Shown here one piece after another: positions 7,238 to 21,071 of a stretch of DNA of 34,508 bases. Under the pieces are notes generated by a model that saw only the letters and a list, made by a program, of their open reading frames with translations, was not told the DNA's origin and did no database searches. The stretch covers positions 1-34,508 of the forward strand of contig JAFVTX010000018.1 of NCBI GenBank assembly GCA_017503015.1. Direction: 5' to 3'. The first letter of the stretch is position 1, and each line of letters opens with the position of its first letter. Made by a program: the position numbers and the translations under genes. Origin of the DNA: Fibrobacter sp. (GTDB lineage: Bacteria > Fibrobacterota > Fibrobacteria > Fibrobacterales > Fibrobacteraceae).

Positions 7238-7271
7238 CCTAACCCCTAGATCCTAACCCCTAACCCCTATT
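7238..7271 (+). repeat. Heptanucleotide repeat (CCTAACC-type) directly before pyrH
   Basis: CCTAACC-CCTAGAT-CCTAACC-CCTAACC-CCTATT runs with a 7-base period up to the ATG at 7272. It replaces a normal ribosome-binding site: no purine-rich Shine-Dalgarno is present. It resembles the 7-base-period runs at 8076 and 20451, though the unit sequence differs. Confidence 0.7.
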
Positions 7272-8075: not shown

Positions 8076-8101
8076 CTAGTAACTAGTAACTGATAACTAC
8101 T
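8076..8101 (+). repeat. Heptanucleotide repeat (CTAGTAA-type) directly before frr
   Basis: CTAGTAA-CTAGTAA-CTGATAA-CTACT runs with a 7-base period into the frr ATG at 8102. As before pyrH, it occupies the place of the ribosome-binding site. Confidence 0.7.
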
Positions 8102-15368: not shown

Positions 15369-16643
15369 ATGAAGTTTATACATACGGCAGACTGGCACCT
15401 GGGCAACTTGATGCACGACATCGACCGCCAAAAAGAAACCGAGCAGTTCCTCGCCTGGCTCAAGAAACGCATCGTAGAACTCGGGGCGCAGTGCCTCGTA
15501 ATCTCAGGCGACATCTTCGATACCACCAACCCGCCCATCGAGGCGCGCAGGCAGTATTTCCGGTTTCTCGCCTCCCTGCTCGAAACAAACTGCAAGAACA
15601 TCGTCCTCATCGGCGGCAACCACGATTCCGGGGCCCTTTTGGATGCCCCGCGCGATCTGCTCGATGCCCTCAATATCCAGATGGTGGGCTCCCTCGGGGA
15701 ACGCCCCGTAGAGGAACTCGTGAAGGAACTGACGGATGCCAGCGGGAACGTCGTGGGCATCAGCGCCGCAGTCCCGTATGTACGCGAAACGGAACTGCGC
15801 CGTTTCAAGCCCGAAGACGCAGTGGATTTCACCCAGAGTACATACTCGGGCATGTACCGTGCCGTTTACGATGCCGCCGAAAAATTGCGCGCCGGCCGCG
15901 ACATCCCCATCGTGGCAACGGGCCACCTGTACGCCTCCAGGCTGGAAGGTCGCCCCGAAAACGACGAGGGCAGGGACGCGAAGGAACACGGCATGCGCGA
16001 CATCGTCGGGAACCTCGGGACAATCCCCGTCTCCGTTTTCCCGGAAGGCCTCGACTACGTGGCCCTCGGGCATATCCACTACACCACCATGGTGGCGCGC
16101 AACCCGAAGGTGCGGTACTCGGGCTCGCCGTTCGTGCTCGGATTTGACGAAGCAAGCATCCCGCACCATATCCTCTGTGTCGACCTGCAGAAGGGCGCAG
16201 AACCCGCCGTGCAGAAAATCGAGACCCCGCAGTACTTCAAGTTCCTGCGCGTATCGGGCTCTGTCGCGGATATCGTCATGCAGCTGAACCAGCTGAAAAA
16301 TGCGCCCGCAGAAAAGCCCCTGAAGGTGGAAGTCGTGTACGACTACGCTCCGGGCGTGAGCATCAACGAGGCGCTCGAATCCGTGCTGGAAGGCGCCCCA
16401 TTCGAGGTCGTGAGCAAGAAGGTGAAACGCGCCGACACCCTTGCGGCGGACGCCTTCTCGGACGATACGCTCGAATCGGTCGACGTCCTTACCGACGAAG
16501 AAGTTTTCAAGCGTCTCGTGATGAGCAAGACGGGTGCGCCCGAAATGGACGAAAGTATCCAGAAGACCCTCGATGAATACCTCCCGCTTTTCAGGCAGGT
16601 GGTCGAAGAAGTCAACAACGAAACCGGCAGCGAGGAGGCCTAA
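15369..16643 (+). CDS. sbcD: Exonuclease SbcD (Mre11-type subunit)
   Basis: SbcD is the metallophosphoesterase nuclease of the SbcCD complex, which opens hairpins and processes palindromic DNA and double-strand breaks. The 424-residue protein has the five phosphoesterase motifs: HTADWHLG (Asp8, His10), VISGDIFDT (Asp48), IGGNHDSG (Asn84, His85), a VATGHLYAS histidine near 186, and ALGHIHYTT near 233. The C-terminal part carries the capping and SbcC-binding regions. It starts with a clear AGGAG site and its stop is 3 bp before sbcC. The complex may matter here because the genome is rich in palindromic repeats. Confidence 0.95.
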   Translation: MKFIHTADWHLGNLMHDIDRQKETEQFLAWLKKRIVELGAQCLVISGDIFDTTNPPIEARRQYFRFLASLLETNCKNIVLIGGNHDSGALLDAPRDLLDALNIQMVGSLGERPVEELVKELTDASGNVVGISAAVPYVRETELRRFKPEDAVDFTQSTYSGMYRAVYDAAEKLRAGRDIPIVATGHLYASRLEGRPENDEGRDAKEHGMRDIVGNLGTIPVSVFPEGLDYVALGHIHYTTMVARNPKVRYSGSPFVLGFDEASIPHHILCVDLQKGAEPAVQKIETPQYFKFLRVSGSVADIVMQLNQLKNAPAEKPLKVEVVYDYAPGVSINEALESVLEGAPFEVVSKKVKRADTLAADAFSDDTLESVDVLTDEEVFKRLVMSKTGAPEMDESIQKTLDEYLPLFRQVVEEVNNETGSEEA

Positions 16644-16646
16644 TAC

Positions 16647-19600
16647 ATGAAGATTCTGAAAGTCGAATTCGAAAATATCAACAGTCTCGCCGGCAAGTGG
16701 TGCATCGACTTTACCGACCCCTCCTACAGCGAACTGGACCACAGCCTTTTCGTCATCAGCGGAAAGACGGGCATGGGCAAGACGAGCATTCTCGACGCCA
16801 TCACGCTCGCCCTCTACGGCGCCACTCCGCGCCAGGGAGTAATCTACAACGGCAACGGCGGTAATGCCGTCATGACATCGGACAAGGGCACCTGTTTCGC
16901 CCGCGTCACGTACCGCTGCCGCAAGGGCACCTACGTATCGGAATGGAACCAGCGCCGCGCACGCGACAGGGCCGATGGCAACCTGCAAAACGCGCAGGGC
17001 AAAATCTGGCGCATCGAGAATCCGCAAGACCCGATCTTTGCGGACAATACCGGCAGGAACAGCGAACTGGCCAGGGCGAATGCCGAAATCATCCAGCTGG
17101 ACTACTCGCAGTTCTGCCGTTCCATCATGCTCGCGCAGGGCGAATTCAGCAAGTTCCTCACCAGCGAAGAGAAGGAACGCGCCGACATCCTCGAAAAACT
17201 GAACGGCACCGAAAAGTACCGCCGCATCGGAAAGAAGGTGGGTGACCACCGGCGCGAGGCGAAAGCGGCAAAGGACACTTCGCAGGCGGCATTCGATGCG
17301 TTGAACAACACCATGCCCAAGGCCGAGGACATCGAGAAGGACAAAGCCCTGCTTGCAGAAGTCGCGGACAAGGAAAAGGCCCTCACGGACAAGAAGAAGG
17401 ATCTCGAAGCCCGTATCGCCTGGCGCAACTCGATGAACGAAAGCGCCCGCAGCCTGGAAAGCGCAGAAACCGAACTTGCAAAAGCGAACAAGGACAAGAG
17501 CGAATTCGCCGGCAACGAGAAGCGGCTTGCAGATGCCGAGAAGGCCCGCGAATGCGCGACGCTGCATACGGAACTGCAGGGATTCCGCAAGCACGAGGCA
17601 GACGACAAGGCGAAACTCGAAAATTTGCAGAAGCAGCTCCCGCAGGTGGCAAGCGACCTGAAATCCGCGGGCGATAACAAGGCCATCGCCGAAAAGGAGA
17701 AGACGGCCACCGAGCAGTTTATCGCCGAAAACGAAGCGCTCTGGAACGAAATCCGCATGCTCGACCAGAACGTGAAAAATGCGACCAGCGTGAAGGCCGA
17801 AGCCGAAAACCGCAAGGCCACCGCCGCACAGTCTCTCTCCGAGGCAGAAGCGGAACTGAAAAAGGCGCAGGATGCCATCAAGTCGCTCGAACCGCAGGTC
17901 GAATCCCTCGCACAGACCCAGGAAGCGAACGCGAAGGACGCGGAACTTGCAGGAATTATCCCGCAGAGCGAAACGCTTATCGCAAGCATCCGCGGGTTCG
18001 ACAAGAAAATCGCCGACGAAGAGAAGGCGAAAAAGGCGTTCGCAGATGACTTGAAAAAAGCAGAAGAAGGTCTCAATGACGCAAACGCGCTCAAGCAGGA
18101 ACTTCTCGAACAGCAGAACGAACTTTTCCGGAACGACGTGCTCGCGCTCGCCAACGTCATCCAGAACCACCTGGAAGAGGGCAAGGCGTGCCCGGTCTGC
18201 GGCTCTACGGAACACCCCGCCTGCGGACACTCGAACGAAACGGTCGTCGATGAATCCAGCGTGACAAGCACCGCCGAAAAGATTCGCGAACTGAACACGA
18301 AGTTGCAGGACGCAGATGCGAAACTCGGGCAGTACGAAAATGCCAAGAGCCGCGCGTTGACCGCCGGGAATGCGGCAAGCGAAAACATCGAATCGCTGAA
18401 CAGCCAGAAAAACGAGGCAAGCGAAAAGGTGGCGGAACTCTGGAAGCCCTGGGCTGAATTTGACCTTACAAACGCGGACAGCACCCTTGCCGACCTGAAA
18501 TTGCGCCTGCAGCAGTTCACCGCAAACAAGACCAAGTTTGATAAACTTTCGAATGATCTTGCCATCGCCCGCAACAACGTGGAACTGTACGGCAAGAAGG
18601 TCCAGCATGAACAGGACCATCTCGAAAAGGAAACCGCAACCCTCGATGATGTCTCCCGCAGGCTGGATGAACTCCGCAGTTCCCGCAACGAGAAGTTTGG
18701 CGACAAGGACGTGGAAGCCGTTGCGAAGGAAGCGACTACCAGCAAGACCGCAGCCGCCAACAAGTACGACGCTGCCGACAAGGCGTTCCGCAATATCGAA
18801 AACAGGCACAACGAACTCAATACGCAAATCGCGGCGCTCAAGGGTTCACTCGAAAAGACCGCGGGCGAGATTAAGACCGCAAGCGAAAAGTTCGTGAACG
18901 CAATCGCCGCGAAGGGTTTCGCCGACGAAGCCGCCTTCCAGGCCGCATTACTGCAGGAAGCCGAATTCACGAAGTTGCAGAACGAAAAGAAGCGTATCGA
19001 CGGCGCCATCGCTACCGCAACCGGCAAGAAGCAGGCGGCAACCGAGGCCCTCGAAAAACTGAAGGCGGAACGCTCCGACGAGACGCCCCTGCAGGCCCTT
19101 ACCGAGGGGAAGGCTGCCGTCGAAAAGGAACTCGGCGAACTGCAAGGCTCATCGGGTGCGGCACGCGCCCGCGTGAAAGCCTATACAGAAAACGTCGCCC
19201 AGTTGCAGATTCTGCAGAAGGATCTCGACGCGAAGAAGGCGGAACTTTCCCGCTGGGAGGCGATGGGCGAATGGTTCGGCGTAATGGACGGCAGCGACTT
19301 CGCCACCTTCGTGCAGGGGCTTACCTTCAAGTCGCTCCTGAAGCTTGCCAACAAGCACCTGGCGATTGTCAAGGACCGCTTCAGGCTTGTCGCCGAAGGG
19401 AACCTCGGTTTCAAGGTGGCCGATTCTGAATTCGGCAACGACCGCCGCATCTCGAACCTCTCCGGTGGCGAGAAGTTCCTGGTGAGCCTCTCGCTCGCCC
19501 TCGGGATAGCCGACTTCGCGAGCCGCAACGTGCGCGTGGAATCGCTCTTCATGGACGAAGGCTTCGGCACGCTGGACGACGACACCCTGGAAGACGTGAT

Positions 19601-19763
19601 GTACTGCCTCCGCTGCCAGCAGCGCGAAGGAAAGATGCTCGGAATCATCACCCACGTGGAATCGGTGGTGAACAGCATCAGCCAGAAAATCATGCTGGAG
19701 CGCAGTACCAGCCAGAAGGGCCACAGCACGATAACCGGCCCCGGCGTCACACGGGTAGCATAA
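16647..19763 (+). CDS. sbcC: Exonuclease SbcC (Rad50-type ATPase subunit)
   Basis: The 1038-residue SMC-like ATPase pairs with SbcD. The N-terminal Walker A is GKTGMGKTS (39-47), and the Q-loop region follows (LAQGEFSKFL). Two long Ala/Glu/Lys-rich coiled-coil arms flank the zinc hook CPVC (Cys515, Cys518), seen within KACPVCGSTEHPAC. The C-terminal half has the ABC signature NLSGGEKFLVSLSLALG (from ~937) and Walker B SLFMDEGFGTLDDDT (from ~966). Length is normal. It forms a two-gene operon with sbcD and ends at a bidirectional terminator. Confidence 0.96.
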   Translation: MKILKVEFENINSLAGKWCIDFTDPSYSELDHSLFVISGKTGMGKTSILDAITLALYGATPRQGVIYNGNGGNAVMTSDKGTCFARVTYRCRKGTYVSEWNQRRARDRADGNLQNAQGKIWRIENPQDPIFADNTGRNSELARANAEIIQLDYSQFCRSIMLAQGEFSKFLTSEEKERADILEKLNGTEKYRRIGKKVGDHRREAKAAKDTSQAAFDALNNTMPKAEDIEKDKALLAEVADKEKALTDKKKDLEARIAWRNSMNESARSLESAETELAKANKDKSEFAGNEKRLADAEKARECATLHTELQGFRKHEADDKAKLENLQKQLPQVASDLKSAGDNKAIAEKEKTATEQFIAENEALWNEIRMLDQNVKNATSVKAEAENRKATAAQSLSEAEAELKKAQDAIKSLEPQVESLAQTQEANAKDAELAGIIPQSETLIASIRGFDKKIADEEKAKKAFADDLKKAEEGLNDANALKQELLEQQNELFRNDVLALANVIQNHLEEGKACPVCGSTEHPACGHSNETVVDESSVTSTAEKIRELNTKLQDADAKLGQYENAKSRALTAGNAASENIESLNSQKNEASEKVAELWKPWAEFDLTNADSTLADLKLRLQQFTANKTKFDKLSNDLAIARNNVELYGKKVQHEQDHLEKETATLDDVSRRLDELRSSRNEKFGDKDVEAVAKEATTSKTAAANKYDAADKAFRNIENRHNELNTQIAALKGSLEKTAGEIKTASEKFVNAIAAKGFADEAAFQAALLQEAEFTKLQNEKKRIDGAIATATGKKQAATEALEKLKAERSDETPLQALTEGKAAVEKELGELQGSSGAARARVKAYTENVAQLQILQKDLDAKKAELSRWEAMGEWFGVMDGSDFATFVQGLTFKSLLKLANKHLAIVKDRFRLVAEGNLGFKVADSEFGNDRRISNLSGGEKFLVSLSLALGIADFASRNVRVESLFMDEGFGTLDDDTLEDVMYCLRCQQREGKMLGIITHVESVVNSISQKIMLERSTSQKGHSTITGPGVTRVA

Positions 19764-19769
19764 TTGGGG

Positions 19770-19792
19770 TAGGCGCTTCGGCGCCTATTTCT
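19770..19792. terminator. Bidirectional terminator between sbcC and the glycosyltransferase gene
   Basis: TAGGCGC-TTCG-GCGCCTA (19770-19787) has a 7-bp stem with a stable TTCG tetraloop, followed by TTTCTTT on the plus strand. The minus-strand glycosyltransferase stop codon (19785-19787) is built from the last bases of the stem, so that gene ends inside its own terminator. Confidence 0.8.
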
Positions 19793-21071
19793 TTAGGCAC
19801 TTTTCGTAGGCTTGGACTTGTCGCTCGATAATGCCGTCCCAGGTGAAGCATTTGGCGATGCGCTTCTGGGCGCCGGCGAGTAAGTCCCTTACGAGGCCGG
19901 CGTCCGAGGAGAGCTTCTTGAAGGCGCTGGCGAGGGCTTCCGGGGACTTTTCAGGGACCAGGATGCCCGAGACGCCGTCAACGACTACGTCGGGAATTCC
20001 TCCGACGTTGCTGGCGACTACGGGGAGGCCAAGCTCCATCGCTTCGATGAGCACTACGCCCAGGCCTTCGGTATCGCCCTTGCTATCGACGATGGCGGGG
20101 AGCGTAAAGACGTTGGCGGTCTTGTATTCGTTTGCAAGTTCCTTTGGCGAAAGCTTGCCTGTAAAGATGATTTCGGCAGATTCCGGTGGCATGCTGGCGG
20201 CTTGCTTCTTCAATTCTTCCGTCAGGTCTCCCACGCCCACGATGCGGATTTCGAACTGGTCCCTGGGCAGGTACTTGGCGGCTTCGATGAGGTAGCAGAT
20301 GCCCTTGCGCTCGATGTGCCGCCCTACGAACAGGATCTTGAATTTGCCGTTTATGGCGTGAGGTTCGGGGGTTTTAGGGGAGTCTCCCCTAGGTGAGGGG
20401 GTAGCGGAAGCCGAGGCTGGAGCGAGGGGGAGGCTTCCCCCTTCCACTGCCTCTCGCCTCTCGTCTTTCGTCTTTCGTCTTTCGTCTAGAGTAGTCCCGT
20501 ACGGACTCCATTCCACATCGACATTCCGGATGGCCTTGATCTTGCCGGCGGTAAAGCTGGAGTTGGCGAACACGGCCTGGGCCTGCCCGATGGCGAATTT
20601 CAGGAGGGGTTTCACCCATTTCTTTTTGCGGATGAGCAAAAGTTCCGCCCCGTGAAAATTCAGCACCAGCGGAATTTTGAACAACTTAGCAGCTCCGAGG
20701 GCGATGTAGGCGTGGGGGAATGGCCAGTGGGCGTGGATGATGTCAGGGCGCCACTTGCGGCAGATGTGAAGGCACTTGAAAAATCCGCTGATGATGTAGG
20801 GGATGGCGAGGAGTTGTAGCCAGGGCTTGCTTGCCATCTTGGAGGGTGCGCCTTCTTCGTGGGTGAGCATTTCTAGGCTTGCGGGGGCGTAGCGGAAACG
20901 GTTCACCGGCACACCGTCGATTTCGTGGGATTTCAGCCCCTTGTAGGCGGGGGCGAGAACCTGCACCTGTAGGCCAGCCTTTTTCAGGTGGGCGATGGAG
21001 GTGCGCAGCCAGGGGACTTCGGCGTCTTCGTGGAACCGCGGATAGACGGAGCCAATGACCAGGACTTTCAT
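19785..21071 (-). CDS. Family 4 glycosyltransferase with an in-frame repeat insert
   Basis: The 428-residue product has the two Rossmann-like domains of GT-B enzymes. The N-terminal domain runs from MKVLVIGSVYPRFHED through HAHWPFPHAYIALG and LNFHGAE. The C-terminal domain starts at FKILFVGRHIERKGI (244-258) and has the GT4 acidic pair E335-x7-E343 (EGLGVVLIEAMELGLPVVAS) that contacts the sugar nucleotide. Between them, residues 195-237 (LDERRKTKDERREAVEGG ... SPKTPEPHA) are low-complexity and are encoded by repeat DNA. They lie in the linker between the domains, where an insert would be tolerated. The donor and acceptor are unknown; surface polysaccharide synthesis is likely. It follows the 152-residue gene by one base, so both are co-transcribed. 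Confidence 0.88.
   Translation of the reverse strand: MKVLVIGSVYPRFHEDAEVPWLRTSIAHLKKAGLQVQVLAPAYKGLKSHEIDGVPVNRFRYAPASLEMLTHEEGAPSKMASKPWLQLLAIPYIISGFFKCLHICRKWRPDIIHAHWPFPHAYIALGAAKLFKIPLVLNFHGAELLLIRKKKWVKPLLKFAIGQAQAVFANSSFTAGKIKAIRNVDVEWSPYGTTLDERRKTKDERREAVEGGSLPLAPASASATPSPRGDSPKTPEPHAINGKFKILFVGRHIERKGICYLIEAAKYLPRDQFEIRIVGVGDLTEELKKQAASMPPESAEIIFTGKLSPKELANEYKTANVFTLPAIVDSKGDTEGLGVVLIEAMELGLPVVASNVGGIPDVVVDGVSGILVPEKSPEALASAFKKLSSDAGLVRDLLAGAQKRIAKCFTWDGIIERQVQAYEKCLKK
20369..20488 (-). repeat. Repeat cluster inserted in frame in the glycosyltransferase gene
   Basis: The block contains the palindrome AGGGGAGTCTCCCCT (about 20378-20392), a GGAAGCCGAGGCTGGAGCG stretch, a second hairpin GGGGGA-GGCT-TCCCCC (about 20426-20441), and a 7-base-period run at 20451-20485 (CTCTCGC, CTCTCGT, then CTTTCGT three times). 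The block has no stop in the gene's frame. Its base pattern looks like intergenic repeat DNA, not like the surrounding coding sequence. Confidence 0.75.

Follow-up and report, generated by a model that had tools for sequence, protein, structure and literature searches.

The GT4 gene and its repeat-derived linker

The analysed stretch of DNA, hereafter the window, comprises 34,508 nucleotides of a 2.96-Mb Fibrobacter genome and carries on its minus strand a GT4 (GT-B fold) glycosyltransferase gene encoding 428 amino acids (19785..21071), identified by its open reading frame and by Pfam matches (PF13439 and PF00534/PF13692). The N-terminal GT-B domain (residues 27-180; 20532..20993, minus strand; PF13439) and the C-terminal one (residues 244-390; 19902..20342, minus strand; PF13692) are predicted with pLDDT values of 67-98 and 63-98 in ten-residue blocks, respectively. 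Pfam places the two domains at 27-180 and 233/244-402 of the protein, with an insert between them; reading frame, domain limits and repeat coordinates bear out the preliminary description of this DNA, in which a repeat block had been placed in frame between two GT-B domains. The closest solved chain by sequence is 5d00, a BshA. GT4 homologues are present in all 61 genomes searched, and near-identical loci were found in MAGs labelled Fibrobacter sp. and F. succinogenes. The gene is adjoined by sbcD and sbcC (15369-19763), which are oriented towards it; SbcD and SbcC are a nuclease pair that cleaves DNA hairpins, and their position beside a palindrome-bearing gene is probably a coincidence. Elsewhere in the window, positions 1-324 consist of a 45-bp tandem repeat in seven copies, the translation of which looks collagen-like, with glycine at every third residue.

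The insert is composed of two repeats. On the plus strand, antisense to the gene, lies an element of about 77 nucleotides, here called E1 and belonging to its type 1 (20366..20443), with three hairpins (GGGGAGTCTCCCC; AGCC/GGCT; GGGGGAGGCTTCCCCC). It is accompanied at 20449..20488 (plus strand) by an array of the heptad CTYTCGT / ACGARAG, about five units long and ending in GTCTA; ACGARAG is the form on the coding strand. The two palindromes and the five-unit, 7-base repeat noted earlier were both recovered: GGGGAGTCTCCCC occupies 20377-20389 and GGGGGAGGCTTCCCCC about 20426-20441, and TRF resolved the array into 3.9 perfect copies of TCGTCTT (20461-20487) and 2.1 copies of GCCTCTC (20449-20463), which corresponds to about five units with one-base variation. 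The repeat origin of the block was confirmed, but not its unity, as E1 and the heptads are separate repeats. Together they are translated in frame as DERRKTKDERREAVEGGSLPLAPASASATPSPRGDSPKTPEP, residues ~196-237 (20361..20486, minus strand), a linker delimited by its absence from several relatives and by pLDDT. The passage of an open frame through a 7-base period had been regarded as surprising, which proved unfounded: ACGARAG contains no stop codon in any frame on either strand, so that uninterrupted reading through such an array is what one would expect. The only source of stops there is the TTAGACG end of the array, where a single frame of each strand is closed. Three heptads make 21 bases, or seven codons.

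The flanking GT-B domains are under strong constraint, with dN/dS values of 0.07-0.12 (pairwise Nei-Gojobori). Values in the insert are higher and look relaxed, at 0.36-2.6 on very few changes and at 0.60-0.68 in two distant pairs of which the alignment is unsure. An AlphaFold model based on 34 sequences has a mean pLDDT of 84, and the sole stretch below 50, residues 196-231, lies inside the insert, which is thus predicted to form a disordered spacer of ~42 residues. A second tolerant loop, residues 284-302 (20166..20222, minus strand), runs in the model between helix 284-292 and strand 300-305 of the C-terminal domain; it is empty here and filled with repeats in many congeners.

E1 and heptad arrays in the genome and the genus

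BLAST of the block against its own genome gave 63 matches, and a covariance model of E1 gave 55. The model was built from 13 copies, and the window element, which it matches with E = 6.5e-14, is itself one of them; the BLAST matches are therefore the independent evidence. The heptad pattern has 42 matches at about 21 places, compared to none for a reversed control pattern. On these copy numbers, a chance origin of the block was rejected. Most catalogued E1 copies fall outside supported open reading frames, and blocks of palindromes and heptads recur at intergenic sites, as the preliminary description had supposed; many other copies exist in the genome. Matches to the E1 model were found in all 37 Fibrobacter genomes, with 2-57 in each of the 36 congeners, and in neither of two sister-family genomes; elsewhere in the phylum, a few genomes show matches, the best of which are in one distant family. 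Heptamer arrays of CCTAACC and CTAGTAA also occur in the window at 7238-7269 and 8076-8099, near gene borders, and Fibrobacter genomes seem to be rich in several heptamer families.

Copies of E1 measure 71-181 nucleotides, contain three hairpins and have a G-run and a C-run as their ends; one orientation ends in AGGGGGAGGCTTCCCCCTTT. Since six of the 15 predicted pairs are changed on both sides, E1 appears to keep its structure, and other repeats are often nested inside the hairpin loops of its copies. A known RNA family was rejected as the identity of E1, because the curated Rfam models gave only two matches to seven loci, both far below gathering scores. Mobilisation by a RAYT is likewise unsupported: the window genome has a single Y1 match (L142:1462-1686), an IS200-like fragment with an internal stop, and Y1 transposases occur in 11 of the 37 genus members and are absent from 26, whereas E1 is present in all 37. 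Target-site duplications were sought around nine E1 sites in five near relatives; three of the sites could be aligned, and they yielded neither a clean duplication nor a precise empty-site junction, as the intergenic sites compared differ by an indel of larger size, by truncation of the copy or by the presence of a different repeat. MITEs are marked by terminal inverted repeats and target-site duplications; if E1 is regarded as a putative MITE, its ends are the G-run and the C-run, and the few sites open to comparison show no duplication. Recombination of one repeat with another, instead of transposition, may also have spread E1.

In-frame E1 copies with Pfam support occur in at least six further genes of the window genome, or seven including the GT4 gene. 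These encode CoaBC (with heptads in addition), an RlmD-like methyltransferase, the HrpB helicase (with E1 and heptads at separate places), a GluQRS-like protein, an RlmL-like methyltransferase (E1 and heptads) and a TonB-dependent receptor (L186:2013-2170), in which two further repeats are nested in the loops of E1, all in frame. Of these seven hosts, four also contain heptad arrays. Five of the seven E1 copies, including that of the window, are antisense, reading GGSLPL...ATPS or similar, and two are sense. The count leaves aside candidate in-gene E1 copies at nine loci that lack Pfam support (L042, L049, L055, L067, L069, L174, L177, L185 and L187), and all gene-level statistics are based on retrieved loci. 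Two other candidate hosts were rejected, a SpoU gene with E1 and a ThrRS gene with heptads, as in both cases the repeat lies upstream of the likely start.

Two types of E1 can be distinguished by a short motif rather than by size: type 2 has GGGGCGTTGCGGGG in place of the GGGGTTTTAGGGG of type 1 and thereby loses a TAG/TAA. Among 39 typeable full copies, genes hold 6 of the 14 that belong to type 2 and 1 of the 25 that belong to type 1 (Fisher p = 0.005), a post hoc contrast on a small sample of copies gathered by similarity to known ones, hence non-random, which serves as a lead. Type 2 accounts for six of the seven in-gene copies, and the mean number of open antisense frames, out of three, is 2.6 in genes, 1.3 elsewhere and 1.1 in shuffles. 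These figures would fit a gene-dwelling type 2 subfamily, with heptads acting as frame adjusters, because a frame upset by an insertion can be restored when 7 bases are added or removed, and with the repeats adapted to genes; this reading as a whole is considered unlikely. The frame adjusters were tested by co-occurrence, a measure that the relatedness of the sequences confounds, and heptads are lacking from many E1 inserts.

The linker and the second loop in related species

The linker and the second loop were compared in 67 Fibrobacterota loci. Among the nearest relatives, independent assemblies (L074, L075, L076 and L098) carry an insert of the same kind as that of the window, so a mis-assembly was rejected. 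In other near relatives, L079 and L080, the insert is missing, as it is in L088; near relatives with short linkers have GT4 proteins of 395 residues. The linker is LEKGAGNTEPHAVNGK in L079, and those of F. intestinalis and the remaining outgroups are just as short; the linker sequence of the window was met in none of the distant genera. The homologues thus agree with the preliminary description, which had taken the linker to be an insertion.

The unit number of the array varies, as the insert of L077 is shorter than that of L076 by exactly three heptads, 21 nucleotides. Together with a unit that is not a multiple of three and with the position of the array inside a glycosyltransferase gene, this could recall the contingency loci of host-adapted bacteria, with the GT4 gene being turned on or off whenever slippage of a 7-base unit moves it into or out of frame. 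Such phase variation is, however, highly improbable here: all orthologous GT4 open reading frames read were intact, with no frame-broken orthologue among these loci, the sole difference in count between near relatives amounts to three units and stays in frame, and the arrays are short (4-5 units), imperfect and elsewhere mostly intergenic.

Across about 50 further species of Fibrobacter, both sites, the linker as well as the second loop, are either empty or hold other repeats, which belong to at least eight families. The fillings include ACGARAG heptads, GTAGGAA and GGAATTC heptads and E1 of type 1 or type 2, and further pieces read CHPERSxAESKDL, CHCEEQGDEAIQ, NEREDNLKRRESQPCLHGYDRASKVG, TSRLQGECRNGKF and RTALSDSSLSAHG. 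Nine insert types were searched, as a concatenate, in seven congeners, and most were found to be repeated many times in their carrier genomes; among the matches listed, two of them, the GGCTCGA heptad and the LRHDEG piece, had no match beyond their own sequence. When the loci are placed on a tree built from the conserved domains, 37 of its 65 rows have a recognised repeat in the linker, whereas all 13 outgroup rows lack one. The fewest changes required are 9 for E1 and 11 for ACGARAG heptads in the linker, and 8 for any repeat and 7 for the CHPER piece in the second loop, counts that do not distinguish gain from loss and that depend on a weakly resolved tree and hand-made patterns; a further pattern, H4, was set aside as it also matches the unrelated GGTTCGAC.

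The differences might instead reflect the decay of one ancient insert that diverged in place. The E1 of CoaBC, which is common to most congeners in one reading frame, and the partial remnants in L118 and a truncated copy in G002 would agree with this, but near relatives with and without GT4 inserts interleave on the tree, the inserts are unrelated to one another and mostly resemble dispersed repeats of their own genome, and the near species represented by the window and L078 have E1 of type 1 and type 2, respectively, at one linker site. A single old insertion can therefore be given very little credence, and new arrivals of repeats account better for these differences.

Turnover of the same sort is seen in the linkers of CoaBC and GluQRS orthologues (30 loci each in congeners), of which 27 and 15, respectively, contain a recognisable repeat by loose peptide patterns. 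This recurrence at the same linkers of three unrelated enzymes, and products that are charged and of low complexity, e.g., DERRETRDERR, raise the thought that linker length or charge is selected, with repeats as raw material rather than mere survivors. We consider such co-option very unlikely, since no length, charge or motif is kept across species, the GT4 linker ranging from 16 to 103 residues and often being empty, and since the dN/dS of the insert looks relaxed.

Relation to known repeats and interpretation

The best reading, which we hold to be quite probable, is an invasion of tolerant loops comparable to that by Rickettsia palindromic elements (RPEs), with selection removing the insertions that break the frame. 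It starts from what the analysis shows directly, namely the dispersal of the repeats, their in-frame position, orthologues that are empty or differently filled, the strong constraint on the domains to either side and the disorder predicted for the insert. Small non-coding repeats, including E1, heptamer arrays and others, would multiply in Fibrobacter genomes, mostly between genes, and would at times move or be copied into them. A repeat arriving in a gene would usually destroy it and then be lost, and the survivors would be those in flexible, exposed linkers of which the combined length and frame leave the protein whole; selection on frame could in this way explain the pattern. The linker between the GT4 domains would be such a tolerant site and, from species to species, would thus have taken up repeats, lost them and taken up others of unrelated sequence, receiving one antisense E1 and one heptad array in the window genome, and the resulting spacer is probably near-neutral for the enzyme.

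The likeness to RPEs, already drawn in the preliminary description, holds for behaviour: E1 is taken to work like RPEs. RPEs are dispersed palindromes that lie in frame at tolerated sites in many conserved genes (Ogata et al.; PMC3767692, PMC2229807), and orthologues carry them at the same locus (PMC3767692, PMC2229807). E1 is similarly a dispersed palindromic repeat found in frame in seven domain-supported conserved genes. However, Fibrobacter belongs to another phylum, and E1 is not filed as an RPE; in addition, a single site can be occupied in Fibrobacter by repeats of clearly unrelated families, heptamer arrays among them, and empty orthologues exist within the genus. GTAG- and CGTC-tagged REPs are short palindromes of many phyla, some of which lie in open reading frames, including those of tRNA synthetases and helicases, and the recB genes of two Xanthomonas species have a REP at about one same site (PMC3733652); that paper does not mention Fibrobacter. 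REPs of the GTAG kind are palindromes of 20-40 bp in which GTAG is terminal, whereas the GTAG of E1 is internal and E1, at about 75 nucleotides or more, has three hairpins and nested insertions, with no RAYT seen; E1 is not filed as a RAYT-driven REP. Correia/NEMIS elements of Neisseria form two size classes, an open-frame one in genes and a stop-rich intergenic one (PMC2229807), which by description resemble E1 of type 2 and type 1, although the E1 types are set apart by a short motif.

Dispersed short tandem arrays of heptamers are known in cyanobacteria as STRR. The TAACTGA repeats of Beggiatoaceae are likewise 7-base arrays at many intergenic sites and in some open reading frames (PMC4679880). 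TAACTGA in forward orientation is reported to have stops in all three frames and to be located mainly at the ends of reading frames (PMC4679880), whereas ACGARAG leaves every frame open and is located in the middle of proteins. The main text of the genome paper on F. succinogenes S85 does not describe such repeats, and the literature searched, which stopped short of most subscription papers, yielded no report of in-frame repeat inserts in Fibrobacter.

These findings extend the in-frame invasion of proteins by repeats to Fibrobacter, where the repeats sit in flexible joints of essential enzymes. For each such loop, dozens of related species offer versions that are empty or hold unrelated repeats, which amounts to a natural experiment. 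This comparison also bears on a question that was left open in a study of R. japonica, i.e., whether shared insertion sites are hotspots or reflect one diverged insertion (PMC3767692); in Fibrobacter, the sites in question are hotspots at which different repeats have inserted. A disordered linker in a protein of a rumen bacterium can thus be repeat DNA and need not be a sequence that evolved as such; linkers filled with repeats also point to natural sites that tolerate insertion.
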